Part shown: positions 4,625-19,248 of the stretch, in pieces
Layout of the letters: each line of letters begins with the position of its first letter
Position numbering within the stretch: the first letter of the stretch is position 1
IMG/VR virus record: IMGVR_UViG_3300036792_000120
Coordinates: 1 to 27,659 of that record
DNA: 27,659 nucleotides
Source of the DNA: a virus
Direction: 5' to 3' (one strand)
Program-made: the position numbers and the translations under genes
Notes under the pieces: generated by a model
The model's database searches: none
The model's input: the letters and a program-made list of their open reading frames with translations, nothing else
What the model was told of the DNA's origin: nothing

Positions 4625-5305
4625 TCAATTAGGCGTGCCGGTCCCGGACCAGCCATAAGGTGTTTGGCGCCAAGGCTTGCGGCTGCGACGGATCGCGGTG
4701 TAGCGCGAGTTGAAGATCGCATATTTCGGCTTCTGCATATCGTGCCGGGCCTTGGCGCGATCCAGCATCGCCATCGCCTCTTTGGTCATCGCATCGGCGT
4801 TTGCGGTATCCGAATGAAAGCCGCGGTAGATCCCGGCCATCACAAACATCTGCAGCGCCACGATTACCGTCGGCGTGGCAAACGTCGGGTCGGAGTTTTT
4901 CGAGAAGATGCCCTTGATCGTGACAGGAAGCGGCGTGGTCGGCGGATTTGGCGGCGGCGGCCCGCCCTGGGCGTTGACGACGATCTGGTTATTGAAGATG
5001 TCCCAGACGCAGGGCACGTCATTCAGACGCACCATGATCAGATGCACGAGATCGGCCGGAAGATTGTAGGCGGTATCGTATTGATCGTCATCAGGCGCGT
5101 TCGCGGCCGGCGGCAAAAGCCGGACGTCGGTCAGCCAATCCCACGGATGGTCCTCGCAGACAAAGGCCAGCGCGCGCTCATAGGCCGGGGACGCGGCATT
5201 CCACTCCTCGGAACCATCGTCGGCGGTCATGACCAGGTTGTCGCTGGTTTGCGACAGCGCGGAGTTGATCAGGGTCAGCTTGTCGAGGGGCCACTGGAAT
5301 GCCAT
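4625..5305 (-). CDS. Tail tubular protein A-like (adaptor) protein
   Basis: This 226-residue protein has features of T7 gp11-like adaptors: an N-terminal helical segment with LTLINSALSQ, the stretch YERALAFVCEDHPWDWLTDV (about 42-61), a YDTAYNLPADLVHLI motif (about 76-90), and a C-terminal helix (about 146-195). Such proteins form the ring joining portal to nozzle. A proline-rich loop (about 114-124) is unusual. The gene starts 43 bases downstream of an intrinsic terminator and 30 bases after a GGTGCGTTGC element, so it probably has its own promoter or depends on read-through. The length fits the family (about 200 residues). Function is inferred from pattern and from adjacency to the nozzle gene. 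Confidence 0.62.
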   Translation of the reverse strand: MAFQWPLDKLTLINSALSQTSDNLVMTADDGSEEWNAASPAYERALAFVCEDHPWDWLTDVRLLPPAANAPDDDQYDTAYNLPADLVHLIMVRLNDVPCVWDIFNNQIVVNAQGGPPPPNPPTTPLPVTIKGIFSKNSDPTFATPTVIVALQMFVMAGIYRGFHSDTANADAMTKEAMAMLDRAKARHDMQKPKYAIFNSRYTAIRRSRKPWRQTPYGWSGTGTPN

Positions 5306-5335
5306 GGCTCACGCTCTGCCGGGCGGCGTTCCATC

Positions 5336-5345
5336 GCAACGCACC
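5336..5345 (-). promoter_or_regulatory. Copy 1 of recurrent GGTGCGTTGC element
   Basis: On the minus strand this reads GGTGCGTTGC. It sits between the terminator and the tail tubular A gene, 30 bases before that gene's ATG, in non-coding DNA. It is one of five exact copies in the same orientation in the morphogenesis region. Confidence 0.5.
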
Positions 5346-5347
5346 GC

Positions 5348-5376
5348 AAAAAAATGCCCGGCTATGAACCGGGCAT
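5348..5376 (-). terminator. Intrinsic terminator between head and tail genes
   Basis: On the minus strand a perfect 8-bp stem, ATGCCCGG/CCGGGCAT, with a 7-base loop (5362-5368) is followed directly by seven T (5354-5348, the first shared with the stem). The plus strand has no T-run after the stem, so it acts on leftward transcription. It lies 28 bases after the stop of the last head-side gene and before tail tubular protein A, the same relative place as the T7 late terminator between genes 10 and 11. Confidence 0.85.
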
Positions 5377-5404
5377 CAGTCTGGGAGGCTATGGCTCTTG
5401 AATT

Positions 5405-5932
5405 CTAGCCAGTCATCGTCGCGTTGGAATTGGCGAGGCGGTCCTGCTCGGCCTTTTCGGCCGCCGCTTTGTCGCCCGCGGCCTTCTTCTGGTCGCGCTT
5501 GCGCATCTGCTCGAGTTCGGCCGGGGTCGGCTCGCCCTTGCGGCCGAACGGGCGCCTGACCCTGGGGTCTGGCCGCGGCGCCGGCGACTTGACCAACGCC
5601 TCGTCAGCAGCGACCTGGTCGGCCTCGGCCTTCTTCTCGGCCTGCTTTTCGTGGAACGCCTTCAACCGCTCATTGGCCTCGGCGACCGCCTTGGCATGCT
5701 CGTCGATTGCGGCCTGTTCCTCGGCGGTCAATTCGACCGGCGGCTCTCCGGCGGCTTCGCGGGCGCGGGCCTCGTCCTCGCGGCTCCACGGCTCATGGCT
5801 CCATTCGTCCGGGAAGCGCGACACGGCACTGTGCGCGTCGATCGCGTAGGGAAACGTCACCGGGCCGTCGATGATGTGGTGGGCGACCGCGGACTGGCTG
5901 GCGGAAATCTTGACTGACCTGGAATCTGGCAT
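5405..5932 (-). CDS. Charged coiled-coil protein, unknown function
   Basis: This 175-residue protein is not recognised. Residues 1-50 contain a short beta-like segment. From about residue 52 it is a long, very charged Ala/Glu/Lys stretch that should form coiled coil, broken by a Pro/Arg segment (about 117-137). GAGGA lies 7 bases before the ATG. It is the last gene before the terminator, after the capsid and cement-like genes. In comparable phages this slot holds small head proteins or assembly factors, but nothing in the sequence decides this. Confidence 0.6.
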   Translation of the reverse strand: MPDSRSVKISASQSAVAHHIIDGPVTFPYAIDAHSAVSRFPDEWSHEPWSREDEARAREAAGEPPVELTAEEQAAIDEHAKAVAEANERLKAFHEKQAEKKAEADQVAADEALVKSPAPRPDPRVRRPFGRKGEPTPAELEQMRKRDQKKAAGDKAAAEKAEQDRLANSNATMTG

Positions 5933-5945
5933 CGGGTTTTCCTCG

Positions 5946-6161
5946 TTAGCGGCCGGAACTCAGCATGCCGGTCCCGTAGCTGTAGGAGCCGACGTTGTTG
6001 TGATTGCGGTCGATGATCGCTGCGGACGGTTTGCCGGCGGCAACCGCGGCCACGACCTGCCGCAGCATGTCCGCGAGCGCCGCGTTTTCCGACTGCGTGC
6101 GCTCGCCGAAACTCGCATTGGTGTTGATGGTGAGGGTGAACGCCCCGCTGCTGACAGCCAT
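5946..6161 (-). CDS. Small conserved-type structural-region protein
   Basis: The ATG at 6161 overlaps the stop of the preceding gene as TAATG, giving 71 residues. A longer start at 6191 is possible but would overlap that gene by 31 bases. The protein has a beta-like start (AVSSGAFTLTINTN), an Ala-rich helix with DMLRQVVAAV, and a Gly/Ser/Tyr-rich tail. It is not recognised. Tight coupling to the cement-like gene suggests a head-related or neck-related part. Confidence 0.6.
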   Translation of the reverse strand: MAVSSGAFTLTINTNASFGERTQSENAALADMLRQVVAAVAAGKPSAAIIDRNHNNVGSYSYGTGMLSSGR

Positions 6162-6688
6162 TATGCGTCCACCTGACATTTGCTGAGCCACGAGGTCACG
6201 GTAACGCTGGGGCTGGTGCCCCCGACCACCACGTAGGCCTTGACGTAGCGGTAAAGGATTTCCTGCTGGAGGTTGCTGACCAGGCGCTGGAACAGCGTGC
6301 CGGCGCGGCCGGATGGCGGGATGGCGGGGCTGGCGCCGAGAATGGTGGAGATCTGGCGGTTAGCGGTCAGCGCCGCGATGTCGAAGAAGTCGAGCAGCTC
6401 GACGTTGCCGTTGCCGAACGCACCGTCATTCGAGCCGAGCAGTGCGAAGCGGTAGAATTCGTCGGTCGTCACCATGTTGACGGCGGTAATGTCGACGGTC
6501 CAGAGCATCTCGGTGCGGCCTGCGGCGGACACCGGATTGGAGCCGCCGAGGTCGAGCAGACCGGAGTTGAGGTTGTTGAGGTAGCCGGTCGCGGTGATGG
6601 TCTGTGCCGACGTGAAGGCGGTCAGTGCGTCGTAAGGCGCCTTGTAGAGAGACGGTTGCGACGGGATCGTGAGTGCCGTGAGGGCCAT
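6161..6688 (-). CDS. Probable capsid cement/decoration protein (Bbp16-like position)
   Basis: This 175-residue protein starts with ATG at 6688, 6 bases after AGGAG, and lies directly downstream of the major capsid gene (12-base gap). It reads like a compact beta-rich protein, with segments such as EMLWTVDITAVNM and LYRYVKAYVVVGG. In phage BPP-1 the gene after the capsid gene encodes the cement protein Bbp16 of similar size, and this protein has the same place and general character. The identification is from context and general resemblance, not from a decisive motif. Confidence 0.55.
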   Translation of the reverse strand: MALTALTIPSQPSLYKAPYDALTAFTSAQTITATGYLNNLNSGLLDLGGSNPVSAAGRTEMLWTVDITAVNMVTTDEFYRFALLGSNDGAFGNGNVELLDFFDIAALTANRQISTILGASPAIPPSGRAGTLFQRLVSNLQQEILYRYVKAYVVVGGTSPSVTVTSWLSKCQVDA

Positions 6689-6700
6689 GGAAGTCTCCTG

Positions 6701-7678
6701 TTAAGCCACGATCGCGGCGTTGGTGATGGAATCGAGCCGGGCGATGGCCTTCGGATGCTCGCGGGCAAAACCGTAATCCCACTTGATATGCGTGGAATCG
6801 AACGGCTGGCCGACGGTCGGGCCTTCCGCCATCACTGAAAGCGGGGTCTGCTCGATGGCGTAGAAGCCGCCGGGCCGGAACGACACGCAGTAAATCGAGG
6901 ACGTCACCGCCGAGCCGCCGCCGGAGGCGACCTCGCCGAACGGCAGAAGATCCGGGCTGTCGTCCGGCTCGTAGCCGAACAGTAGCGGCAGACCCTTGAA
7001 CTTGATGATGCGGCGGCCAAAATCATCCTCGGCGTAGCTGACAGTCTGGTTGACCAGCGAATTGTTGCGCGCCGCGGCGTCGAACTGCGGCATCAGACCG
7101 CGCGGCACGATCCAGTGCGTCGGCTTGTTCACCAGCCAGTAAAGCGCGTCCATGTTGGCAAGCGAAAGCGCGCCGCCGCCAGAGGCGGCCGAATTGTGGA
7201 TCTGGTTGCCGGTGATCGGGGTGGTGTTGTTGCAGCGGACCTGAATGCCGTTCGGCGTGCGCGGATTGGACGAGTTGTCCGATTTGATGCAGTTCTGCGA
7301 GAAGAACTGGCCGAGCGCGATGCTCTTGAGCTTCTCCTGCTTGTACTTGCCCTCGGGGCCGAGCCGGTCGATCATGGCGCGGTCGGCGAAGATGTAATCG
7401 TCGATGAAGTAGGTGTCTTCCTCGCGCAGGTTGAACGAACCGAGGTTCTGTTCGCCGGCTTCGTTGAAGCCGCGGAAGCTGACAGCCGGAAGCGAGGCGA
7501 TGTCCATATAGGCCCGCTTGCCGCGCTCGGCGGGAAGGATCGGGATCGCCCGCATGACGTCCGATTCCTCGATCATGTTTTCGACGAACGCGCGGGTCGG
7601 ATCGTTGACGTCGATCGACTTCGCATACTCGACGAAGTTGGTGGGCGTCGTGATCGTGGTGGTGAGCGAGACGGCCAT
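6701..7678 (-). CDS. Major capsid protein
   Basis: This 325-residue protein lies directly after the scaffold gene, with AAGGA about 8 bases before its ATG. The length and the order portal, scaffold, this gene, cement-like gene match the BPP-1-like podovirus head module. The sequence fits an HK97-fold shell subunit: an N-terminal arm, an extended segment with TYFIDDYIFADRAMIDRLG (about 89-107) followed by a long spine-like helix, and a C-terminal half of beta segments with loops such as FGYEPDDSPDLLPFG (about 233-247). No protease or cleavage site is evident. A GC-rich hairpin just before its ribosome site may affect expression. The call is firm from context, less so from motif. Confidence 0.82.
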   Translation of the reverse strand: MAVSLTTTITTPTNFVEYAKSIDVNDPTRAFVENMIEESDVMRAIPILPAERGKRAYMDIASLPAVSFRGFNEAGEQNLGSFNLREEDTYFIDDYIFADRAMIDRLGPEGKYKQEKLKSIALGQFFSQNCIKSDNSSNPRTPNGIQVRCNNTTPITGNQIHNSAASGGGALSLANMDALYWLVNKPTHWIVPRGLMPQFDAAARNNSLVNQTVSYAEDDFGRRIIKFKGLPLLFGYEPDDSPDLLPFGEVASGGGSAVTSSIYCVSFRPGGFYAIEQTPLSVMAEGPTVGQPFDSTHIKWDYGFAREHPKAIARLDSITNAAIVA

Positions 7679-7692
7679 TTACGTTTTCCTTC

Positions 7693-8523
7693 TCAAGACG
7701 CGCGGCGTTGGGCCGCGCGCTGGTCCTGCGCAGAACGTTTCTGTTCGAAACTCATGGTGTCGTAGCCGGGAATGCCGGTATCGGGCGCGGCGCGGTGCTG
7801 CTGCGAGAAGCCGGCCGTACCCTGCGTGGTGACCTTCTGGATGATCCGCTCGAACGCCTCGACGTGGCGCGCGGTGACCAGCATGCCTGCGAGCGCCCGG
7901 GCATCGCCCTTGTCGGCGGACGCATCCATGCCGGTCAGCCAATTGATGACGCTGTCGACGCGGGCCGGCGCGGTGGCACCGAGCTTGGCGATCTCGGCCG
8001 CCTTCGCGGTCTGGATCGCCTGCTGGGTGCCGACCTCGTTGCCAGCGTAGACGCCGAGCAGTTCGGACACCGCATCCTGCGTCATGCCGTGCTTGTGGGC
8101 GACGGCGCGGAGTTGGGCCAGCGCGGGGTTGTTGGTGTCGAGTTTGTATTCGACGCCGGCCGGCGGCTTGAAATCGGCGGGCAGGTCGAGTTTGTAATCG
8201 TCGGCCTTCTGCGGCCGGGCCGCGGCCTTGACTTCTTCCGCTGCCTTGAAGGTCTTGAGCTCGTCGCGCTCCTTCAGGTCTTTCGCGAGCGCGGCCGGAT
8301 CGACCTTGAGTGAATTCTTTTCGGCGTCCCAATAGCTGTCGGGGATGCCGTCAGGCCGTGTCGTCTGGGAGGTCGTAGCCTGCGACGCGGGTGTTTGGTC
8401 CGATGCGACGGCGGGTGCCGGGCTGGCCGGCGTAGCTGACGGCGCGGGGGCTGGGGACGACAACGGGCTGCTCACCGCCGCCGGGGCCGATGCTTGAGCC
8501 TGTGATACCTGTTCGTCCGCCAC
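7693..8523 (-). CDS. Scaffolding protein
   Basis: This 276-residue protein begins with GTG at 8523, preceded by AAGGGAG with a 9-base gap. The N-terminal 50 residues are a Pro/Ala/Ser-rich disordered tail. The rest is charged and helical, with the segment DDYKLDLPADFKPPAGVEY (about 108-126) seen in many phage scaffold-like proteins and a basic, Gln/Arg-rich C-terminus (about 255-276) suited to binding capsid subunits. It sits between the portal block and the capsid gene, as scaffolds do. The first 173 bases overlap the Bbp19-like gene in another frame. Confidence 0.75.
   Translation of the reverse strand: MADEQVSQAQASAPAAVSSPLSSPAPAPSATPASPAPAVASDQTPASQATTSQTTRPDGIPDSYWDAEKNSLKVDPAALAKDLKERDELKTFKAAEEVKAAARPQKADDYKLDLPADFKPPAGVEYKLDTNNPALAQLRAVAHKHGMTQDAVSELLGVYAGNEVGTQQAIQTAKAAEIAKLGATAPARVDSVINWLTGMDASADKGDARALAGMLVTARHVEAFERIIQKVTTQGTAGFSQQHRAAPDTGIPGYDTMSFEQKRSAQDQRAAQRRAS
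7699..7719. other. GC-rich hairpin before capsid ribosome site
   Basis: A perfect 8-bp inverted repeat, CGCGCGGC/GCCGCGCG, with a 5-base loop covers the last codons of the scaffold gene and ends 20 bases before the capsid ATG. There is no T-run, so it is unlikely to be a terminator. It could be an mRNA stability or processing element. Confidence 0.6.
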
Positions 8524-8737
8524 TTTCGCGAGCTCCCTTGGCCATGAGGCCGATCAATGTGGCCGCGAACCTGCGTTCCCCCTCGTCTCGCTGCAACGCA
8601 CCGTCCGAGTTGACCGGAGCAATCGACATCAGCCGGCGCTGCAGAAACACGTAGAGCATGTGGCCGTCGGCGGACCGCGCGATGCGATCGATCGCCTCTT
8701 TGCAAATCTCCTGGCTCGGGTGGATTTCATCGCTCAT
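8351..8737 (-). CDS. Small portal-downstream protein (Bbp19-like)
   Basis: This 128-residue protein starts at the ATGA overlap with the portal stop. Residues 1-75 read as a compact helical domain (SQEICKEAIDRIARSADGHMLY, RRLMSI, then RDEGERRFAATLIGLM). The remainder is a Gly/Pro/Arg-rich tail. Proteins of this type, a short domain around a tyrosine-led helix and a G/ERR helix, are found between portal and scaffold in BPP-1-like phages (Bbp19). The tail region is coded in DNA that also codes the scaffold N-terminus in another frame. The gene's existence is well supported by coupling and composition. The family name is tentative. Confidence 0.6.
   Translation of the reverse strand: MSDEIHPSQEICKEAIDRIARSADGHMLYVFLQRRLMSIAPVNSDGALQRDEGERRFAATLIGLMAKGARESGGRTGITGSSIGPGGGEQPVVVPSPRAVSYAGQPGTRRRIGPNTRVAGYDLPDDTA
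8593..8602 (-). promoter_or_regulatory. Copy 2 of recurrent GGTGCGTTGC element
   Basis: An exact GGTGCGTTGC on the minus strand, inside the Bbp19-like gene (reading G-A-L in that frame) and 69 bases before the scaffold start codon. Confidence 0.45.
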
Positions 8738-10353
8738 GCCGCGGGCCCCGGCGTGGCATTGCCGGGATCGGCAACGTGACGGCCCATGGTCAGCTTCGCC
8801 ATCTGGTCGGTGGCCTGGGCGACCTGATCGACCGGCCGCAGCGGCAGGAGATCGGCGACATCGGCCTCGTTGATCCACTCCTCCATGGATTTGCGGCCGT
8901 CGACGTTCATCTTGAATTCCTCGGGATAGATGCCACCCAGCGTCGCCGCGGTGTTGGCGGCTTCGGCCAGGCGCTGCAACTTCGCGGCGGCCTGTGTCGG
9001 ATTGAGAGGTTGGGTCGACACCATCTTGCCGTCGACCGTGACGGGCTGGATGGCCTGCGACTTCTCCAGCAGATATTTGAACCGGATGAAAATCTGCGCG
9101 AGGTCGCGCCAGAACGGCATGCCGGGCGTGCCGATGCGGCGCTGGGCGCGCGCGGCCTCGTCCAGCCACTGCGCGCGGGTCGGCGGGGTATCGCCGGTCT
9201 GTTCGGGCAGGTCGACATAGAACAGCTTGCGCAGCTTCTTCAGCTTGTCCTCGTAGGAATAGTTGGCTGAATTGGCCGGCGGCGCGTCGTAGATCTTCTT
9301 GATCGCAACCTCATGGCCCGGCTCGACCGGATATGCCATGCCGGATTCGAAGCCCTGCTCGACGCTGGAAAAACTGAAACTCGGGAACGTCATCGGCGGC
9401 CGCAGCGACAATTCCATGTTCTCGCCGAGCATCAGTTCGGCCTCGTCGATCTGGCGCAGGCTGGGCAGGCCCTGCAGCAGAGGGCCAAGGCCGAACGGCG
9501 AATCCGGCGTCGGGTTGAAGCGGCCGACCCAAAGCGGACAGCAGCCCTCGCCCTTGATCACGACGTCATGCACGAGGTGATTGGCACCCTCGCCGATCAT
9601 GACGACGTGCTGCCAGGTTTCGTCGCCCTTCTCCTGCCACAGACGCCAGAAACCCCAGGCGACCACGGTGCGGCGCTTCGGTGCCTCGGTGATCTTCTTG
9701 ATGATGTCGGGCGCGATCTTGCCCCAGATTTCCTCGCCGACAAGTTCGCGAACGTTGAGGTTGCGGGTGTGGCGGACAACAAAGCGGTCGTCGATGTCGC
9801 CATAGGGGCCGAGGTTGATCTCGAGCTCGCGCAGCGGCACCGCGGAATTGATGATCGGATAGGTCGGGTGCGGCCGGTCGATCCACAGCGCCACGGTGCC
9901 GATCGACAGGTCGGGATAGAACGCCTTCGGCACCTCGGAGTAGAGGTTCGATGCCTTCATGGCGTTGAAGATCACCTCGTCATCGTTCTTGATCTGGTCC
10001 TTGACCTGCTTCCAGATCGGACCCTTCTCGCCGCCGGGCAGGTCCATGCCGGGCCCGCGCTTGCACCACGGCTTGTCCGGCGACATGAAGCCGTTGACGA
10101 CCTCGGTGACGAAATCGCCGCACAGAATGAATGCTTCGTCGGTGTTTAGATCGCCGGCGTCCTGGATACGGACGATGGTGTCGGACGAACTGGCCGAGGC
10201 CAGCGAGCGCTGACGGTGTGGCGAGGAGAAAAAATAGCACTCGCGGAAATCCATCTCCCACTGCGTTTTCCACGCGCGGCAGGCGGCGAGGCGATCCTTT
10301 GCCTCCTGCTCGAGCGGGCTGGCAGCGGTGGCTTTCGGCGGGGCTTTTGCCAT
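8734..10353 (-). CDS. Portal (head-to-tail connector) protein
   Basis: This 539-residue protein matches the pattern of the podoviral head-to-tail connecting protein family (PF12236 type). The N-terminal part has FRECYFFSSPHRQR, then TDEAFILCGDFVTEVVNGFMSPDKPWC. A central part carries YPIINSAVPLRELEINLGPYGDIDDRFV, and later EAELMLGENMELSLRPPM. In the virion it forms the twelve-fold ring that passes DNA and anchors the tail adaptor. The ATG at 10353 overlaps the preceding stop as TGATG, so I prefer it to the GTG one codon earlier. It is followed by the Bbp19-like gene with an ATGA overlap. The length is normal for the family. Confidence 0.88.
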   Translation of the reverse strand: MAKAPPKATAASPLEQEAKDRLAACRAWKTQWEMDFRECYFFSSPHRQRSLASASSSDTIVRIQDAGDLNTDEAFILCGDFVTEVVNGFMSPDKPWCKRGPGMDLPGGEKGPIWKQVKDQIKNDDEVIFNAMKASNLYSEVPKAFYPDLSIGTVALWIDRPHPTYPIINSAVPLRELEINLGPYGDIDDRFVVRHTRNLNVRELVGEEIWGKIAPDIIKKITEAPKRRTVVAWGFWRLWQEKGDETWQHVVMIGEGANHLVHDVVIKGEGCCPLWVGRFNPTPDSPFGLGPLLQGLPSLRQIDEAELMLGENMELSLRPPMTFPSFSFSSVEQGFESGMAYPVEPGHEVAIKKIYDAPPANSANYSYEDKLKKLRKLFYVDLPEQTGDTPPTRAQWLDEAARAQRRIGTPGMPFWRDLAQIFIRFKYLLEKSQAIQPVTVDGKMVSTQPLNPTQAAAKLQRLAEAANTAATLGGIYPEEFKMNVDGRKSMEEWINEADVADLLPLRPVDQVAQATDQMAKLTMGRHVADPGNATPGPAA

Positions 10354-10562
10354 CACGCCGCTTTCGTCATCGGGGATGACATGCCCGCACCGGACAAGGC
10401 GAGCGCGGTCCCGTAGCGGGCCATTAGCGCCGCAGTGTCGCCGCTTGCCTCCTGCTGCAGCGCCACGATCTGCGTATTCGACGCCTGCTGCTGTTCGGTC
10501 GCGAGGTTAGGATCGGTCGCCAGTTGGGGTTGGCTCTGCTGCATGGTCGCGGACAATTCCAC
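10353..10562 (-). CDS. Small Gln/Ala-rich protein
   Basis: This 69-residue ORF starts with GTG at 10562, preceded by GAAGG with a 6-base gap, and ends in a TGATG overlap with the portal gene. It is rich in Gln, Ala, Ser and Thr and probably helical (about 20-45). No family is recognised. Small ORFs before the portal are common in related phages and may be connector or packaging accessories. An ATG at 10544 is an alternative start. It overlaps the preceding gene by 56 bases. Confidence 0.5.
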   Translation of the reverse strand: MELSATMQQSQPQLATDPNLATEQQQASNTQIVALQQEASGDTAALMARYGTALALSGAGMSSPMTKAA

Positions 10563-10950
10563 CGGTAGCCTTCAGGTGGCGGAACAGGGCATCCGGACGC
10601 AATGCAGCGCAACGCACCCCGATCAGGTGCGAAACCGCCGTGGTGCAGAATAGACCAAGGCGCATCCACGGCAGATCGTCGCGGACATCGACCGTAATGC
10701 TGGCGTTATCCTTCAGGATCGCGGCGATGACGGTCTGTGCCGATGGGCCGTCGACCAAAACCTTGAGCCGGGTGCGGCGGAATCCGACGTCGTAGATCCA
10801 CCACTGCCCGAGATCCGGCATCCATGCCAAGGCCGAGACGTGTTTGAAGCGGCCGAGCGCGATCATGGCGAAAAACCAGTTCTCGGCATGGCGGTGGAAC
10901 ACCACGGTCCAGCGCGCGGCCTCGATGCCGAAGGCGCTGATCTCCCTCAC
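10507..10950 (-). CDS. Conserved-type phage protein between terminase and portal
   Basis: This 147-residue protein is joined to the large terminase by an ATGA overlap. It is rich in aromatics (WTVVFHRHAENWFF, LGQWWIYDVGF) and has a motif with one Cys, FCTTAVSHLIGVRC, followed by LRPDALFRHL. Short proteins with a similar C-x-x-x-V-x-x-L-x-G-x-R pattern occur beside terminases in other podoviruses and are usually unassigned. A cysteine-hydrolase-like fold is conceivable but unproven. The gene's reality is well supported by composition and coupling, its function is not. Confidence 0.55.
   Translation of the reverse strand: MREISAFGIEAARWTVVFHRHAENWFFAMIALGRFKHVSALAWMPDLGQWWIYDVGFRRTRLKVLVDGPSAQTVIAAILKDNASITVDVRDDLPWMRLGLFCTTAVSHLIGVRCAALRPDALFRHLKATGGIVRDHAAEPTPTGDRS
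10609..10618 (-). promoter_or_regulatory. Copy 3 of recurrent GGTGCGTTGC element
   Basis: An exact GGTGCGTTGC on the minus strand inside the preceding gene (there reading V-R-C, a different frame from copy 2). It lies 46 bases before the GTG start of the small protein that leads into the portal gene. Confidence 0.45.
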
Positions 10951-12512
10951 GACACCCGCCGCATCGACTTGCGCCTATTCCAAGTCTGCACGCCCTTCAC
11001 CGGCACGTTGCCCATGGTGACGGCCTTGCCCTCGCCGCCCCCGAGCAACTGGTTTTCGAAGGCTTCGCAGATGTGGCTGTACTGGTTCTTTTCCGGCTCC
11101 TCGGAATAGCGCTCGCCGGAAACCCGCAGCCGCCGCATGAAATAGCCACCGGCGAGCCCGGTGATCAGCGTGACGCAGGAGGGATCAATCAGCAGCGATG
11201 ACGGCCGGCCTGATTGCGAGCGTCGCATCAGCACGCCGTTCACCGCCTCGCGGCGGATCGAGTACATGTTCTGCGGGTTCGGCGCAGGCAGCACCTTCAT
11301 GCCATTTTCGGCGAATACCTGGAACGGCGTCTTGTCGGTGGCCTGCCCGCGGTGTTGGCCCGCCGGATCACCCCAAAAAACGAAGCTGTGGCCGGGATAT
11401 TGCTGCGCAAGATAGGTCTTCAGCAGCGGCGCGAACTCCACGGCGCTCATGTCGCGGCCGATATACTCCCGCTGGATGAACCAGTCGGCCCGCAGGCTTT
11501 GCCCGATCGCGGCAGCCGGCATCCGGCCGAAGTCGAGGCCGACGATCACGGGATGGTTCGGGATGATCTCCAGCGGCCGCGACGCGACGTTCGCCTCGCG
11601 ACTGAAGGCCGGGTAGACCGGGTTGCCGTCGGTGACGACGCTCGACCGGTTCATGATGTTGGCATCGATCCACGATTTGGTCTTGCCGGCGATCTTCTCC
11701 TCGTAGAACGCAGGCGGCAGGTATTTCAAATTCTCGGCAACCGGGTTCGGCTTGTAACCGATCAGCCGCCGCTGCGGCTTGCCGGCGCCGTCGTTGTATT
11801 CCTCGAAATTCTCCAGAAGCCCCGGCGGCTGCATGTAGAACGCCCAATTGGCCGGCTTCTTCAGCGCGTTGCGCTTTTCCTCGGTCATCCAGTCCGGCGG
11901 CGGCACGTCGCCACGCATGATCGGCAGCCAGTGATCCGCCGGCGGCGCGTTGGTGTCGGCAATCAGCCCGCCCCAGGCGCAGCCCCCGTCCTTGACCGCG
12001 GGAAACCGCGGCGGCGAGACGCGCCCGACCGCCTCCGAGAAAACCTCGTATTGCGCGAACTGCACCTCGTTGAACCAGATCAGCGACGTCTCCAGGGACA
12101 TGAAGAACGATTTGGCGTCCCGGATGTCCTCCATCGCCACGAACGTCACGTCGAGCTCGAGCGGCCCGACCCGGATCTCATGCCGGTACGGCCGCGTCTC
12201 GTAGAAAATCCCGAACTCGCCGGCACCCGTCCCCGGCCGAAACCAGTCCTTCCACGTCTGGATCGTGGTTTCCTCGAGCTTGGCGTAGGTCTCGCGCAGG
12301 ATGTGCACCCGGAACCGCTGCCGCCCGTCCGGCTGCCGCGGCTGCTCGAGCGCGCGCTGGAACACATGCATGCAGCACGCCGAAGACGTGCCCGACCCGA
12401 CCGGCCCCTGAATGATCTTCACACGCGAGGTCTTGTCCCGCATGAACGCCTTCAGCACCGCACCGTCAGGACGGAAGATCGGGAAGCCGGTGGCGGGGTC
12501 CTTTTCGATCAT
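10947..12512 (-). CDS. Terminase large subunit
   Basis: This 521-residue protein is the packaging motor and nuclease. The N-terminal ATPase domain has a P-loop-like stretch VKIIQGPVGSGTSSA (about 31-45), an R-x-T helix (HILRETY, 70-76) and a Walker B-like LIWFNE (144-149). The C-terminal RNase H-like nuclease domain shows VGLDFG (D327) and FWGDPAG (D382), the expected first two acidic residues. The Walker A lysine position (residue 42) is Thr, which is unusual. The start overlaps the upstream small gene (ATGA) and the end overlaps the next gene (ATGA), so this is a tight operon. The overall type is that of BPP-1/T7-like podoviruses. Confidence 0.88.
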   Translation of the reverse strand: MIEKDPATGFPIFRPDGAVLKAFMRDKTSRVKIIQGPVGSGTSSACCMHVFQRALEQPRQPDGRQRFRVHILRETYAKLEETTIQTWKDWFRPGTGAGEFGIFYETRPYRHEIRVGPLELDVTFVAMEDIRDAKSFFMSLETSLIWFNEVQFAQYEVFSEAVGRVSPPRFPAVKDGGCAWGGLIADTNAPPADHWLPIMRGDVPPPDWMTEEKRNALKKPANWAFYMQPPGLLENFEEYNDGAGKPQRRLIGYKPNPVAENLKYLPPAFYEEKIAGKTKSWIDANIMNRSSVVTDGNPVYPAFSREANVASRPLEIIPNHPVIVGLDFGRMPAAAIGQSLRADWFIQREYIGRDMSAVEFAPLLKTYLAQQYPGHSFVFWGDPAGQHRGQATDKTPFQVFAENGMKVLPAPNPQNMYSIRREAVNGVLMRRSQSGRPSSLLIDPSCVTLITGLAGGYFMRRLRVSGERYSEEPEKNQYSHICEAFENQLLGGGEGKAVTMGNVPVKGVQTWNRRKSMRRVS

Positions 12513-12703
12513 TCTTCCACCGGGACCATCTTAAAACCCCGAGCCCACATCGCCGCGAGCGTGAAGTCCGCCCACTTTTCCGCATCGTCCTGCGTCGTGT
12601 TGGCAAACTCCTCGACCGCATGCGCTATCAGCGCCTCGCGCGCGCCGTTCCCTCGGTGCCGCTCAATACGCACCACCGGCAGGTCGATGATCTCGGCGCT
12701 CAT
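12509..12703 (-). CDS. Small acidic protein before large terminase
   Basis: This 64-residue protein has AAAGGG 7 bases before the ATG and an ATGA overlap with the terminase gene. It contains DLPVVRIERHRGNGAREALI and then an acidic helix ending in WARGFKMVPVEE. It is not recognised. The codon pattern and tight coupling make it likely to be real. Its place suggests a packaging accessory. Confidence 0.6.
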   Translation of the reverse strand: MSAEIIDLPVVRIERHRGNGAREALIAHAVEEFANTTQDDAEKWADFTLAAMWARGFKMVPVEE

Positions 12704-12951
12704 TCCGCGACCCTTTCAGGAAAAACAAAAAATCCGGACAGACAACAGTTGGAAGAAAATCGCGAGGGGCGGACGGGAGATCGATGAACTTCGCCGCGAT
12801 TTTCCCCCCGCCGGTCGCCTGGGCGATCTCGGCCGCGGAGGACCCCGCCGGTACCCTCCGCAATGTTCGCTCTCAGCGTGAGAGTGCACATTACCCTCCG
12901 AGGGGAATACATATCGAGCAATATCAATTGGTTGCGAGGCTCGCGTGTCAG
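12704..12951 (-). other. 248-base gap between small terminase and next gene
   Basis: No gene here is convincing. Three overlapping short minus frames exist; the longest starts at 12955 with an ATGA overlap to the small terminase stop and runs to 12716, and another ends in an ATGA overlap at 12703. None has natural-looking protein composition throughout. The stretch holds a direct repeat and a dyad described separately. It could be a packaging recognition region. Confidence 0.45.
12852..12900. repeat. 9-bp direct repeats flanking a dyad (possible packaging site)
   Basis: TACCCTCCG occurs at 12852-12860 and again at 12892-12900, exactly 40 bases apart. Between them lies a perfect 6-bp inverted repeat, CTCTCA/TGAGAG (12870-12875 and 12879-12884, 3-base loop). 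It is next to the small terminase gene, where pac or cos sites often lie. Confidence 0.45.
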
Positions 12952-13413
12952 TCACGTGTCGTTCCCATTGAGTATGGGACCAACAGGCTGTTTTGGCGCG
13001 TCAGACAGGTCGATGACGTAACCAGCCTTTATGTCAATGTTCACAGACACTTGCGGGTCAGCGCTCGGCTTGATGCCCGCGATCGCCAGCATATGCTTGG
13101 ATGCGTCGAGGCTGACGTGCTCGGATCCCGCGTCGAGCAATTCAATCAGCCTAGCGGAAGCTCGCATCGTGCCTGCGGCGATGGATTCGCGGGCAGCGCG
13201 ATCAGCAAACATCCGTATCTCAGGTTTTTTGAGAGCGCCCGAAAGATAGTTCGGGTGCATGCCAGTGCGCTCGGCTGCGGCTTTTATGGTTTTGCATTCG
13301 CCGGTGACGAGCAGGTGAACGACCTCAGCAATACGCTTCGGAACCCGCTTGATTTTGACCGGATTTACTTCGTTTGGAGCCGGAACGGCTTGCAAGGCAT
13401 TTGCTGCGCTCAT
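12952..13413 (-). CDS. Terminase small subunit candidate
   Basis: This is a 153-residue protein from ATG at 13413. The frame stays open upstream to an ATG at 13515, but those 34 extra residues read less naturally and would cover the GGTGCGTTGC element at 13447. Neither start has a good ribosome site. The N-terminal third has a helix-turn-helix, RIAEVVHLLVTGECKTIKAA and then AERTGMHPNYLSGALKKPEI (about residues 26-65), as expected of a protein that recognises the packaging site. The remainder is an Ala-rich helical part (RASARLIELLDAGSEHVSLDA), then a beta-like C-terminal segment that could contact the large subunit. The position shortly before the large terminase supports the call. Confidence 0.72.
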   Translation of the reverse strand: MSAANALQAVPAPNEVNPVKIKRVPKRIAEVVHLLVTGECKTIKAAAERTGMHPNYLSGALKKPEIRMFADRAARESIAAGTMRASARLIELLDAGSEHVSLDASKHMLAIAGIKPSADPQVSVNIDIKAGYVIDLSDAPKQPVGPILNGNDT

Positions 13414-13446
13414 GGGAGCGAAGATGGCTTTGCAGGATGGCCCGGA

Positions 13447-13456
13447 GCAACGCACC
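13447..13456 (-). promoter_or_regulatory. Copy 4 of recurrent GGTGCGTTGC element
   Basis: An exact GGTGCGTTGC on the minus strand, 33 bases before the preferred start (13413) of the small terminase. Confidence 0.45.
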
Positions 13457-13489
13457 GTTGGCACAAGAGCGGCTACACCAATAGTAAGC

Positions 13490-14110
13490 TTATGCTGTAG
13501 CCGGACCTGTGCCATGTTGTGCCACGGCGCGGCGGCGATACCATGTGCGGCGACTGATGCCCTCGCCTTCCCACGGTCGGCAATCGCTTATGGATTGTTT
13601 CTCGTATTCCTTCCGTGACTTACATCCCTTGGCGCGCCTTTGAGCCTGTTTGCGGAAGCGGTCACGTTCGCGGCGGCGTTTGGCGCGTGCTGCCTTGCTT
13701 TCGTCGATCGCGCCGATGGTGGTTATTCCGAGCATTGTTCGTTGCTCCCTGGTGAGACGCAGCCGCCACGCCAGTTGATCGGCGGTCCATCGTTGAGGGT
13801 TTGCGAGGGCCTGTCCGACGAGGTCGCGCTGTTCGGCAACCGTGAGCCATGGGGCCCAGGATTCGATCCAGTTGGTGACGTGCTTGCGGGGGTGCGCGAG
13901 GCAGGCCAGATGGTTCACGGCGATGTAGAGGTCCTCGCGGCCGGCATCGTCGTCGGGCAGCTTGTCGAAACCGCCATATCGGCTACGGAACAGAATGCAG
14001 AGATCGCGAATGCGAAGTCCGACGATCTGCATGGGCGACAGCTTCTTGCGCTTCCCTTTTTGCTTTCGGGAGAACCACTTAACGTTGGCGGCGCGCTGTG
14101 CCTTCTGCAT
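13490..14110 (-). CDS. Basic conserved prophage protein, possible nucleic-acid binding
   Basis: This 206-residue protein is very basic at both ends. The N-terminus has SRKQKGKRKK. The middle has a helical domain with LPDDDAGREDLYIAVNHLA and NWIESWAPWL (about 50-95), then LTREQRTMLGITTIGAID (about 118-135). The C-terminal part is Arg/Lys-rich and ends in EGISRRTWYRRR, which looks like the recognition helix of a helix-turn-helix. Proteins of this layout are common in rhizobial prophages, usually without assigned function. It is the first gene of the morphogenesis block, after a structured leader and a GGTGCGTTGC element, so a role as late regulator or DNA-binding packaging factor is possible. 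That is inference only. The antisense reading frame (13640-14278) is a shadow. Confidence 0.72.
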   Translation of the reverse strand: MQKAQRAANVKWFSRKQKGKRKKLSPMQIVGLRIRDLCILFRSRYGGFDKLPDDDAGREDLYIAVNHLACLAHPRKHVTNWIESWAPWLTVAEQRDLVGQALANPQRWTADQLAWRLRLTREQRTMLGITTIGAIDESKAARAKRRRERDRFRKQAQRRAKGCKSRKEYEKQSISDCRPWEGEGISRRTWYRRRAVAQHGTGPATA

Positions 14111-14280
14111 CGCCTATTGGGCGTGGCACAGGTCTATCCGCAACGCACCAAGGAGGATTCGGGGCCGATAATTAGCTCCGAAATCCCCCTTGAAAATGGG
14201 GGGATTTATGAGGATATTTCCACTGTTGCGGACGCACGAATGCGCCCGCTATTGTTGCAAACAGACTCCGACGACTGATA
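14111..14280 (-). promoter_or_regulatory. Structured leader of the morphogenesis block
   Basis: This gap has no gene. Read leftward it holds a 7-bp stem with a TTCG tetraloop (14247-14230, GGGCGCA/TGCGTCC, one G-T pair), then a perfect 9-bp stem AAATCCCCC/GGGGGATTT with a 9-base loop (14181-14207), then copy 5 of GGTGCGTTGC. Neither stem is followed by a T-run. It probably contains the promoter or leader of the late genes. Confidence 0.5.
14140..14149 (-). promoter_or_regulatory. Copy 5 of recurrent GGTGCGTTGC element
   Basis: An exact GGTGCGTTGC on the minus strand in non-coding DNA, 29 bases before the ATG of the basic protein at 14110, nearly the same spacing as copy 1 has to its gene (30 bases). 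Confidence 0.5.
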
Positions 14281-14517
14281 TCACGACACCCGGCGACCGT
14301 TAACGGCCTTGATACGCTTTCCTGCGACTGGAACATGGGGCAAGCTCGCTTCGGATAAGTGCGCCGCCGCGATCTCGACCTTCAACGTATCCAGTACGGT
14401 GCGCGCAAACCCGATATGAACGCGTGCCTCAGCGTGCGTGAGCTTGCCGTCTTCCAGCTTTTTCCACAGGCTCAGCATCTTTTCTCGAACGTCTCCGGTA
14501 TCGACCAAGCTTGTCAT
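14281..14517 (-). CDS. Small helical protein, unknown function
   Basis: This 78-residue protein starts with ATG at 14517 after AAGGAG and a 6-base gap. That good ribosome site supports this start although it overlaps the preceding gene by 89 bases. It is mostly helical (REKMLSLWKKLEDGKLTHAE, then HIGFARTVLDTLKVEIAAAH) with a basic tail. No family is recognised. It is the last gene before the late-block leader. A regulatory or anti-terminator role would fit the place, but nothing in the protein shows it. Confidence 0.6.
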   Translation of the reverse strand: MTSLVDTGDVREKMLSLWKKLEDGKLTHAEARVHIGFARTVLDTLKVEIAAAHLSEASLPHVPVAGKRIKAVNGRRVS

Positions 14518-15127
14518 TTACTGCTCCTTGAAGGCCTGTGATAGATCGTGCCAAGCTGTCGGCCTCTTGCTCCAGCTTGGAGATTCTCTCGCGCTCGCGA
14601 CGTTGGGCAATGCTGCCGTCCTCTATCGGACGCCACGTGTCGGCAAAACACCAAGACTTGCCCTTGCAAATGTCTGCTTCAAGTGCCTCAGAAGCGACGG
14701 CAATTTCGCTCGAGTTGAGATAAAAACCACGGCCGTCGGACATCGGGAAAAACTCGCATCGATTTGGGTCTGCGGCCTCATCAACTAGCCAATAAAGCTG
14801 ATGTCGCGAACTCGCGACGAAGACTCCGAAAGGACGATTCTCGCCAATTACCCTTACGAGGTACGGCAGGGCGACGTCAGGAAATTCATCCAAGGAGATT
14901 TTGGAGATCGCAAGCTTGGCTATATCCCGCTTCCGACGCGCCTCGGTAAGCGTGGGAACATCACGAAGTGACCCCAGTCCATGCCAACGCTCGCGCCCAG
15001 CAACCCAATGCCGGTAGAACCAGCTCTTGGCGCGCTCGTTCGTAACTGTCAAATACAGGCCGCCCTGCGCGAAATACCTGCCGCGCTTCAAACGGGCTAA
15101 ATTGTCGGCGTGAGTTATGATCGGCAT
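14429..15127 (-). CDS. Orphan integrase arm-binding-like (DUF4102-type) domain protein
   Basis: This is a 232-residue protein. Residues about 9-78 follow the pattern of the N-terminal arm-DNA-binding domain of tyrosine integrases (DUF4102/PF13356 type): RGRYFAQGGLYLTVTNERAK, then SWFYRHWVAGRERWHGLGS, then a helix with TLTEARRKRD. What follows is not the core-binding or catalytic domain and has no R-H-R-Y series. There is a middle segment with FGVFVASSRHQLYWLVDE (about 100-117) and GRGFYL, a coiled coil (about 174-200), and a basic C-terminus. It therefore cannot recombine DNA but may bind it. It overlaps the preceding gene by 13 bases and the next by 89. The integrase lies 12 kb away. The domain call is by pattern only. 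Confidence 0.65.
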   Translation of the reverse strand: MPIITHADNLARLKRGRYFAQGGLYLTVTNERAKSWFYRHWVAGRERWHGLGSLRDVPTLTEARRKRDIAKLAISKISLDEFPDVALPYLVRVIGENRPFGVFVASSRHQLYWLVDEAADPNRCEFFPMSDGRGFYLNSSEIAVASEALEADICKGKSWCFADTWRPIEDGSIAQRRERERISKLEQEADSLARSITGLQGAVNDKLGRYRRRSRKDAEPVEKAGRRQAHAR

Positions 15128-15669
15128 GCCGTCTGCGCTTCCTTGCGTTCCCTCAATCGCTCCCGCATTGTCTTCCGATGCAGTTTCCAGCGTTTTTTAG
15201 CTGCTTTTCTCGCTATTTCCGTTCGATGCTCAGCGCTGAGCATAACCATCCGTTTCTGCGCTCCAAGCTTCCCGGACTCCGACATCACGGCAGGAGCTGC
15301 CCGCTCGATCATCCGCTTTGACACCCTGCGCCCCTGCGAATGTACCCGCTTGCCGTCCCTGCCCTCCCAGCGCGATTGCATGCGCTGTGCGGCCTCGAGG
15401 TTGATCTTCATTTCGAACTCGACCGCGAACAGTTCGGTGAAATCGTCGAACATCGCGGCTGAGAGCCCCTTGGCCCTGGTTGGCCCCAGTGCCTTGTCGG
15501 TGCGACCGTCGGCTATTCCGATCAGGTCGTCACAAACCTTGTTCGACAGCCCGAGCAGATCCTTGACGGTGCGGAATGCCTCGACCAGATCGTCATAGGT
15601 CCGAAACCGCGCGATTACCTCGCCGGCGGCTGGAACCGTAATGCTGGCCGCTGTTGTCAAGTTCACCAC
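15115..15669 (-). CDS. Conserved-type rhizobial prophage protein with helical N-domain
   Basis: This 184-residue protein has FRTYDDLVEAFRTVKDLLGL and SNKVCDDLIGIADGRTDKAL (about 22-61), which resembles a helix-turn-helix region, then FDDFTELFAVEFEMKINLEA, and a basic tail with SAEHRTEIARKAAKKRWK. Proteins like this recur in rhizobial prophages without assigned function; DNA binding is likely from the basic tail and N-terminal helices. The frame opens with two GTG codons (15669, 15666) directly at GGGGAG, so the TTG at 15660, 8 bases after GGAGG, may be the true start. It sits mid-operon between the arm-domain gene and a helical protein. Confidence 0.6.
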   Translation of the reverse strand: MVNLTTAASITVPAAGEVIARFRTYDDLVEAFRTVKDLLGLSNKVCDDLIGIADGRTDKALGPTRAKGLSAAMFDDFTELFAVEFEMKINLEAAQRMQSRWEGRDGKRVHSQGRRVSKRMIERAAPAVMSESGKLGAQKRMVMLSAEHRTEIARKAAKKRWKLHRKTMRERLRERKEAQTACRS

Positions 15670-17980: not shown

Positions 17981-18435
17981 GCGCAGCGTTCCTCCGAACG
18001 TCGAACCAGATCGGCCATGGTGAGAGGGGGCAGCGGCACCACCGTCACACGACAGCCGAACGGCGCCATGCCAAACTCGACTACCAGGCGGCGCATGTGC
18101 TTGGGGGAATCGTCCTCGATCAGTTCGATTTTGCGCAGATAGTCGATCAGCGCCTTGAGACCGTTGTCGAGGTCAATCCTGCTGAGCGTTTCGGACAGCA
18201 CCACCCGCAGCTCGAAACGCTGCACCTTGGCGAGCTTGAGCGGACTGTTGGCCCTGCCCTTCGCCGCGAGCACGTACGCATTCGCCACGTTGTGCCATGC
18301 CTTAACCTTCCGCACCGCCGACCAATCAACCCGACGTGTGCGGTTGACCGATGGCGGTGCGGGAAGATCCAGCACGATATCCGGCGGCGCCGCGAACGGC
18401 GGATCGGCCATGGATGGTGCGGCGGCGTGCTCCAT
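17977..18435 (-). CDS. rusA: RusA-family Holliday junction resolvase
   Basis: This 152-residue protein carries the RusA signature: SRIDLDNGLKALIDYLRKIE (85-104) with D88, D90, K94 and D98, then LIEDDSPKH (105-113). In the family these acidic residues bind metal and cut four-way junctions. An N-terminal PAPPSVNRTRR (26-35) matches the usual P-S-x-N-x-x-R start of the domain. It resolves branched DNA from replication or recombination before packaging. The ATG at 18435 overlaps the upstream stop (TGATG) and the end overlaps the next gene (ATGA). An in-frame ATG at 18411 is a possible later start. Confidence 0.85.
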   Translation of the reverse strand: MEHAAAPSMADPPFAAPPDIVLDLPAPPSVNRTRRVDWSAVRKVKAWHNVANAYVLAAKGRANSPLKLAKVQRFELRVVLSETLSRIDLDNGLKALIDYLRKIELIEDDSPKHMRRLVVEFGMAPFGCRVTVVPLPPLTMADLVRRSEERCA

Positions 18436-18983
18436 CAGTGCACCGGCGCTCCGGCAATGGCTTCCTCGAGATCGACCTGAGCGCCGGGGACTGCGGAATC
18501 CGGTGCCTCGGTCGGCCGCTTCTTCTTGAACGCGGCCATGAGCACGGTCTGGCCTTCATGCCAACCGTTGATCCAAAGCTGCTGAGCGTCCTGGGCCAGG
18601 TTCTTCGGAGGCTCGCAGGTATCGCCGGACATGCCGGCCGTCTTGCCATTCTCGAAGTTGTCGACCTGTGCTTGCTCGAATAGCTGCGGCTGTGATCCGA
18701 CCTTGAGGCCGGCCCACCGCGCGAGACGCTGGGCGCGTTCGAGCACACCCTTCATCTTCTTCGGATTGTCGGCGAGGATCATGTCCTTGATGTCGGCGAG
18801 TGCGCCCTTGCCGAGGTCAGACTTGGCGAGATCGGCGACTGCGGTGCGATCGGCCTTCGCCTTCTCGACCAAGGCATCCGCAGTTTCGTATTTCCGCTTG
18901 TGGTGCAGCGTGAGTGCGCGTTTCTCATCATCGGACAGCGACGAATTGTGCCCGATGCCGTTTCCTTCCTTCTTCTTAGCCAT
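18435..18983 (-). CDS. RMF-like domain protein
   Basis: The start at 18983 (ATG, GGAG with 6-base gap) is preferred over the TTG at 19016; it gives 182 residues. Residues 1-105 are helical and charged (DEKRALTLHHKRKYETADAL, KGALADIKDMIL). Residues 109-146 resemble ribosome modulation factor: FENGKTAGMSGD, a Cys and Pro pair, then WINGWHEGQ, paralleling the G-x-x-A-G-x-x-G ... W-x-x-G-W pattern of E. coli RMF. RMF dimerises 70S ribosomes in stationary phase. Whether this protein contacts ribosomes is unknown. It lies between a small ORF and RusA, tightly coupled to both. The pattern call is moderate; a DNA-metabolism role is the alternative. Confidence 0.6.
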   Translation of the reverse strand: MAKKKEGNGIGHNSSLSDDEKRALTLHHKRKYETADALVEKAKADRTAVADLAKSDLGKGALADIKDMILADNPKKMKGVLERAQRLARWAGLKVGSQPQLFEQAQVDNFENGKTAGMSGDTCEPPKNLAQDAQQLWINGWHEGQTVLMAAFKKKRPTEAPDSAVPGAQVDLEEAIAGAPVH

Positions 18984-19248
18984 AGATTGCTCCAGGTTGC
19001 CGGTTGTGGATGCCAAACACGACCCGCAAAATCTCCTCGATCTCGCGGTCGATCATTCCGTGCGGCGTTGTCAGACACAGCGGCAGCGGCTCATCTGATA
19101 GGCCGTAGAAACTGTCCGCCGCGTCACTGGGTTTGGGGGCCAGGGGCGAAGACGCGGCGGCGCTGTCTGCCGAAGGGCTCCCACCCCCAGCAAACTCTGC
19201 GAACGGATTTGGTAGCGCGGGCATGTGATGCTCAAAAGTTGCCGACAT
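18976..19248 (-). CDS. Small protein, unknown function
   Basis: This 90-residue ORF overlaps the RMF-like gene start by 8 bases. The N-terminal half is Ser/Ala/Pro-rich and disordered. The C-terminal half has CLTTPHGMIDREIEEILRVV, likely a strand plus helix. No ribosome site is evident before the ATG at 19248. It is not recognised and could be a leader gene for the replication operon. Confidence 0.5.
   Translation of the reverse strand: MSATFEHHMPALPNPFAEFAGGGSPSADSAAASSPLAPKPSDAADSFYGLSDEPLPLCLTTPHGMIDREIEEILRVVFGIHNRQPGAIYG

Follow-up and report, generated by a model that had tools for sequence, protein, structure and literature searches.

Late transcription is understood in few phages outside the enterobacterial models. 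The nearest functional parallel to the locus described here, by comparison with the literature only, is the Caulobacter GTA, in which the GafY protein together with RpoD activates promoters having a degenerate -35 element (PMC11150451). Binding by GafY reportedly takes place far upstream and requires IHF (PMC11150451). Among phages, the lambda cII promoters PRE, PI, and PaQ carry TTGC words around the -35 position of sigma70 promoters, with cII needing TTGC-N6-TTGC, while the zinc finger protein Ogr of P2 and the C protein of Mu are late activators that work on host sigma70 polymerase. In T7, the class III promoters consist of a short exact word that recurs on the late strand ahead of the capsid and tail units, beside terminators.

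We analyzed an IMG/VR virus record of 27,659 bases with a G+C content of 61% (the whole stretch is called the window below), in which the 10-mer GGTGCGTTGC is repeated. Its late block is a podovirus module with terminases, a portal protein (PF12236), a GP7-like capsid protein (PF20911), and tail proteins (phrog_394 and phrog_376). A similar late gene order and a distant large terminase (34% identity to BcepC6B) are found in the podoviruses BPP-1 of Bordetella and BcepC6B of Burkholderia, but the examined part of BcepC6B (22.7 of 42.4 kb) shows no enrichment of the word or its core and no homologue of the XRE-type protein discussed below. Like the Caulobacter GTA, the locus is an alphaproteobacterial phage-like late cluster in which an activator would aid RpoD at a degenerate -35; unlike there, a short and almost invariant word overlaps the -35, and the candidate activator is XRE-type. 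With lambda cII it would share a phage activator reading TTGC words around the -35 of sigma70 promoters, but a second upstream TTGC is present only at copy 5 of the window, and no such column is conserved in the promoter family. A lambda cII site was rejected on these grounds (one of five window sites; no upstream repeat conserved across 133 sites). P2 Ogr and Mu C likewise serve several late promoters through one common activator site and host sigma70 polymerase, but their sites differ and neither protein belongs to the family of the XRE-type candidate. The T7 class III promoters resemble the window in their repeated short exact word on the late strand adjoining terminators, whereas here a sigma70-type -10 box is present and our searches found no single-subunit RNA polymerase.

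The repeated word in the window and in related phages

Five exact copies of GGTGCGTTGC lie on the minus strand of the window, which is the late-gene strand (Table 1), and none elsewhere; the backwards version, used as a control, has no copy. The initial annotation had reported these five copies and none in the rightward half, and both statements held, with the coordinates exact. It had also put the expected number well below one, which dinucleotide shuffles of the window confirm (mean 0.21, maximum 2), but the selection of the best among some 500,000 possible 10-mers has to be allowed for. The window count alone is not decisive because several other G+C-rich 10-mers are equally common (5-9 copies each), and one-mismatch forms, whose count it had proposed as a check, number 7, not above chance. 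Distances of 30, 69, 33, and 29 nt to the next start codon held with re-called gene starts, whereas the 46 nt given for the copy at 10609-10618 differs, as the gene caller prefers an ATG 64 nt away. The claim that two copies are non-coding held in part: three are intergenic on the re-called starts (5336, 13447, and 14140), as 13413 is a more probable start of the small-terminase homologue than 13515.

Table 1. Features of the window bearing on the repeated word, with coordinates of the whole stretch.
Feature	Position	Strand	Remarks
GGTGCGTTGC copy 1, upstream/-35 element	14140-14149	-	before the late block's first gene; 29 nt to ATG at 14110
Copy 1 weak candidate -10 box CAATAG	14114-14119	-	T-7 missing; score 0.1
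GGTGCGTTGC copy 2	13447-13456	-	before small, then large terminase; 33 nt to ATG at 13413
Copy 2 -10 box CATCTT	13421-13426	-	score 8.3
GGTGCGTTGC copy 3	10609-10618	-	within the final part of the preceding gene; a small gene and the portal gene follow
Copy 3 candidate -10 box CCTGTT	10583-10588	-	score 3.6
GGTGCGTTGC copy 4	8593-8602	-	before scaffold-like gene and capsid gene
Copy 4 -10 box CAGGTT	8568-8573	-	score 6.3
GGTGCGTTGC copy 5	5336-5345	-	immediately after terminator, before tail genes
Copy 5 -10 box GAGCGT	5311-5316	-	A-11 and T-7 kept; score 0.7
Intrinsic-terminator-like hairpin GCCCGG-TTCATA-GCCGGGC + T7	5346-5377	-	ends capsid unit; abuts copy 5
Candidate cognate activator, 181 aa, XRE/Cro-cI-type HTH	15115-15660	-	HTH at residues about 18-88
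Integrase-type Arm-DNA-binding domain (PF13356)	14429-15127	-	beside the candidate activator; no catalytic domain detected
Late block's first gene, function unknown	13490-14110	-	predicted leaderless
Small terminase	12952-13413	-	phrog_2538; predicted leaderless
Large terminase	10947-12512	-	phrog_2
Portal	8734-10356	-	PF12236
Scaffold-like protein	7693-8523	-	phrog_3742, phrog_458
Major capsid protein, GP7-like	6701-7678	-	PF20911
Tail protein	4625-5305	-	phrog_394; predicted leaderless
Conserved protein	18435-19016	-	weak match to ribosome modulation factor (PF04957, below cut-off)

With the window count not decisive, it is the relatives that settle the reality of the word. Large-terminase and portal searches yielded 55 loci with 37-90% protein identity, on contigs that are uncultured and possibly incomplete. 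The exact 10-mer is present in 36 of them, nearly always on the late strand and with flanks that are unrelated from site to site, and in near-whole contigs all exact copies but one lie on the late strand. Four relatives without the exact 10-mer keep the core with changed edges, such as CTGTGCGTTGGG or CGTGCGTTGC. The 8-base core GTGCGTTG has 119 late-strand against 10 opposite-strand copies in 17 related phage contigs, with 5-9 copies per phage in mixed reading frames, and it ranks among the top strand-biased words found de novo in most of these contigs. The conservation of the word is thus shown by computation. Two outcomes that, according to the initial annotation, would have refuted it did not occur: the word is kept at the same places in close relatives, and the Bradyrhizobium chromosome shows little excess of it. 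One prophage-holding Bradyrhizobium genome (9.7 Mb) has 30 copies, 6 in the prophage and 24 outside, against 18 for the backwards control, so that the word is not a strong host signal.

The simplest alternative holds that the repeats reflect chance, coding constraint, or a recombination or packaging word without any role in transcription. The abundance of other 10-mers in the window speaks for it, but the strand bias, unrelated flanks, and mixed frames in the relatives, as well as the -10 and ATG geometry described below, leave practically no room for this explanation.

Two database assignments among these phages deserve mention. A recorded Microcystis phage (PP395640.1) has 66% G+C and its relatives among Bradyrhizobium-type phages; its true host may be an associated heterotroph. 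A contig binned as the actinobacterium Salinibacterium (SCSV01000188.1) is one of these phages, and its assignment is probably a binning error.

A second element at fixed spacing and the gene starts behind it

Across 133 non-redundant sites, the only conserved columns besides the core are adjacent to it or lie 27-37 bases past its start. The second element, (G/C)CAYNNT, begins 17-19 bases after the 10-mer, and a shift-tolerant model describes it as (G/C)(C/G)CAYNNT(G/C) with the A at 81% and the T at 79%. The log-likelihood gain of the bipartite motif is 308 versus 40 ± 6 in shuffled flanks, the shuffles preserving base composition only. A -10 model trained on near-start sites only (defined below) was found in 24 of 62 non-redundant other sites against a background of 7.6% (P 7e-12), and it matches these only at the expected offset; the fixed position of the second element is therefore a computational result rather than an inference. 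Not every site is strong, as only 39% of the held-out site class pass the strict -10 score and about 15% of forward cores have no good -10 even when judged by a model fitted on them. In the window, two of the five copies (1 and 5) have weak boxes; one relative (L001) has a better box, CATTCT, at the place of that of copy 1.

The A and T four apart in this element match A-11 and T-7 of the sigma70 -10 box, while the TTGC of the 10-mer sits at -35, with spacers of 17-18 bp at the window sites. The sites fulfill two expectations for an activated sigma70 promoter: A-11 and T-7 occur in a -10 box spaced 17 ± 1 from the -35 position, and a conserved non-sigma word (GGTGCG + TTGCGN at about -41..-30) overlaps a nonconsensus -35. 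The promoter itself is well supported by sequence, in the absence of transcript 5' ends, binding, or reporter data; the use of RpoD is inferred. A sigma54 promoter (GG-N10-GC at -24/-12) was rejected because GG and TTGC fall into one 10-mer and no conserved column lies at the needed distance.

With many copies on one strand, placed ahead of late units and behind terminators (an arrangement of terminator and copy that is also present in many relatives), the architecture resembles that of T7, and the copies could mark promoters served by a polymerase or sigma factor of the phage itself, as known from T7 or T4. Against this, single-subunit RNA polymerase (PF00940) was detected in none of 17 records, some of which may be incomplete, by a search that finds the enzyme of T7 with an E of 1e-109; sigma region 2 was not found in 13 phages, and region 4 was above cut-off in only one. 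In addition, A-11/T-7 boxes at sigma70 spacing are untypical of T7-type promoters, and we consider this reading very improbable.

The distance from core to start codon has a sharp mode at 30-36 nt (35 sites). A Shine-Dalgarno sequence precedes only one of these 35 near-start genes, compared to 31 of 41 starts at 44-80 nt and 342 of 576 forward genes overall. All 35 begin with ATG, while the more distant starts comprise 30 ATG, 9 GTG, and 2 TTG. In 22 of 29 near-start sites, 6-7 nt separate the -10 box from the ATG. Gene starts were taken from our own simple caller, which favors Shine-Dalgarno sites and ATG; the former bias runs against the low Shine-Dalgarno count at near-start genes, whereas the latter somewhat weakens the uniform ATG count. 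The pattern as such is shown by computation and points to leaderless mRNAs, which, like the start sites, remain inferred from sequence alone. Without transcript 5' ends, the mRNA start is predicted at or adjoining the A of the ATG (13413) for copy 2 and at the ATG (5305) for copy 5.

The full pattern of word, spacer, -10, and ATG was found in at least 120 stretches of IMG/VR (some of which come from one and the same contig) against 24 in all for a pattern with the word reversed. In these 120 stretches, the distance from word to -10 peaks at 18-19 and that from -10 to ATG at 6-7, whereas the reversed control is flat, and two or more cores are present in 70 of 120 stretches versus 3 of 24 control stretches. 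Our search of the open-access literature, judged by title only, found the word in 16 papers, none of them with phage or promoter in its title.

Alternatively, the word could act in the mRNA as a translation initiation element, a processing site, or an ops-like antitermination or pause site. The tight distance of 30-36 nt to many ATGs and the absence of Shine-Dalgarno sequences there speak for this, as does the fit of the word to the consensus pause pattern, which is G-10 Y-1 G+1. However, the second element keeps its distance from the word even at starts that lie 44-79 nt away and have a Shine-Dalgarno sequence, and antiterminator loading sites should precede terminators, whereas many copies directly follow them. 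An mRNA-level signal thus appears highly unlikely. The initial annotation had listed a late promoter element, an activator site, and an mRNA signal as possible meanings; the first two are supported together, while the third is disfavored by the constant spacing from word to -10 at start-codon distances ranging from 30 to 79 nt. The position of the copies, after terminators and upstream of the -10, also led us to discard an ops-like pause site. Pairing of GUGCGUUGC with the loop of 16S rRNA helix 31, which would include one G-U pair and in which the invariant T forms the weaker pair, was also set aside, as the DNA-level -10 spacing explains the data.

Candidate readers of the word

The edges of the word vary between phages, with dialects that include GGTGCGTTGC and TGTGCGTTGG. 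Within phages, the base before the core agrees at 0.74 versus 0.35 ± 0.02 expected and the other edge position at 0.75 versus 0.53 ± 0.02; of eight control columns, three are mildly raised and the remaining five lack the effect. These computed dialects are phage-specific and therefore imply a phage-encoded reader.

Among gene families, the sole non-structural one found in every contig spanning its place is that of the 181-aa protein encoded just before the late block. This protein has no Pfam match up to E 1 (including HTH_3 and HTH_31) and no significant PHROG match, so that its XRE/Cro-cI assignment rests on predicted fold only and not on family. Its AlphaFold2 model has a pLDDT of about 80-94 over most of residues 18-88, with best fold matches to an XRE protein (Z 8.9) and to 1rio (Z 8.4), the lambda cI-NTD with sigma region 4; the Foldseek E is only 0.04. 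The model thus predicts a helical HTH domain of lambda-repressor-like fold, whose putative recognition helix has an almost invariant lysine (K56), and a basic helical C-terminus.

The candidate was then followed in sequences not used in finding it, namely phage Mwe-JY08 and prophages found through the XRE gene. Mwe-JY08, a held-out isolated phage whose large terminase is 40% identical and on which our open-access literature search found no paper, has 6 forward cores with -10 boxes and an XRE homologue (E 3e-13). Neither core enrichment nor an XRE homologue was seen in the examined 30.0 of 34.2 kb of Pelagibacter phage Hodr. The XRE gene led to 20 Bradyrhizobium prophage regions, in all but one of which no structural homologue of the window could be detected; in 13 of the 20, a core lies on the same strand and at most 1.5 kb downstream of this gene (2.6% expected each). 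The nominal P of 1e-16 overstates independence because some of the regions may share ancestry. The other seven have an XRE homologue with no core nearby; matches to the C-terminus only (L130-L135), also with no core nearby, were left out of the counts. Co-occurrence of the XRE gene with the word in relatives, Mwe-JY08, and unrelated prophages is thus shown, while direct DNA binding, activation, and the identity of the activator are inferred. Dialects track XRE subfamilies imperfectly, with L032 as an exception.

In many regions of Bradyrhizobium in which no structural homologue of the window is detectable (L138-L140, L146-L153), a single core (about 780-850, in XRE orientation) directly follows the XRE gene and precedes an uncharacterized gene pair, and these may be one-promoter versions of the same promoter-XRE system. 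A family search on genes downstream of the core in unrelated prophages remained mostly blank.

The same promoter could instead be read by a regulator or sigma factor of the host, by a cofactor of the GcrA type, or by some other small protein of the phage. GcrA (PF07750), an alphaproteobacterial regulator known to bind sigma70, is encoded by several phages, and there is no direct evidence on what reads the word. However, GcrA is present in only 4 of the phages and absent from the window, the 24 copies outside the prophage in the Bradyrhizobium genome compare to 18 backwards copies, and the dialects favor a phage-encoded reader. Another reader is therefore unlikely, though a host factor or other small phage protein remains possible. 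The GcrA homologues were found in G006, G008, G009, and G011 (e.g., L063:586-1161). As a universal cofactor, GcrA was rejected because it is missing from most phages. A GcrA-dependent promoter, which calls for the gene in the phage and a methylatable GANTC close to the start, does not fit either, with GANTC within 60 bases of only one of five window sites.

Proposed mechanism and implications

Taken as a whole, the 10-mer is likely the upstream half of a sigma70-type phage late promoter that is read by an XRE-type activator. It would cover about -41 to -32, including a partial -35 (TTGC), and be followed 17-19 bases on by the degenerate -10 box with A-11 and T-7. Such a promoter would probably be opened by the housekeeping RNA polymerase of the host (RpoD type), brought there by a word-reading phage activator, most likely the XRE/Cro-cI-type protein whose gene closely precedes the late block. 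A single promoter would serve each late unit (first gene, terminase, portal, scaffold-capsid, and tail), often directly after a terminator; the timing is inferred as well. With a gene start only 6-7 nt beyond the -10 box, the mRNA would begin at the AUG and be translated leaderless, while a start further away would use a Shine-Dalgarno sequence.

A bolder reading, which we would neither endorse nor dismiss at present, is that of a widespread undescribed late system in which fast-diversifying XRE-type activators each read their own dialect of GTGCGTTG and direct host RNA polymerase to make largely leaderless late mRNAs, with the activator-promoter pair being exchanged among unrelated phage types.

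The promoter family appears to be previously undescribed and common to many viruses of Bradyrhizobium-like soil bacteria, and the candidate activator is not named in any database. For this large set of uncultured viruses, the analysis provides a precise, testable promoter rule together with a candidate activator, and the rule offers a way to predict late operons, start codons, and leaderless genes. The joint change of an activator and its sites could be studied along the natural series that the dialects provide.
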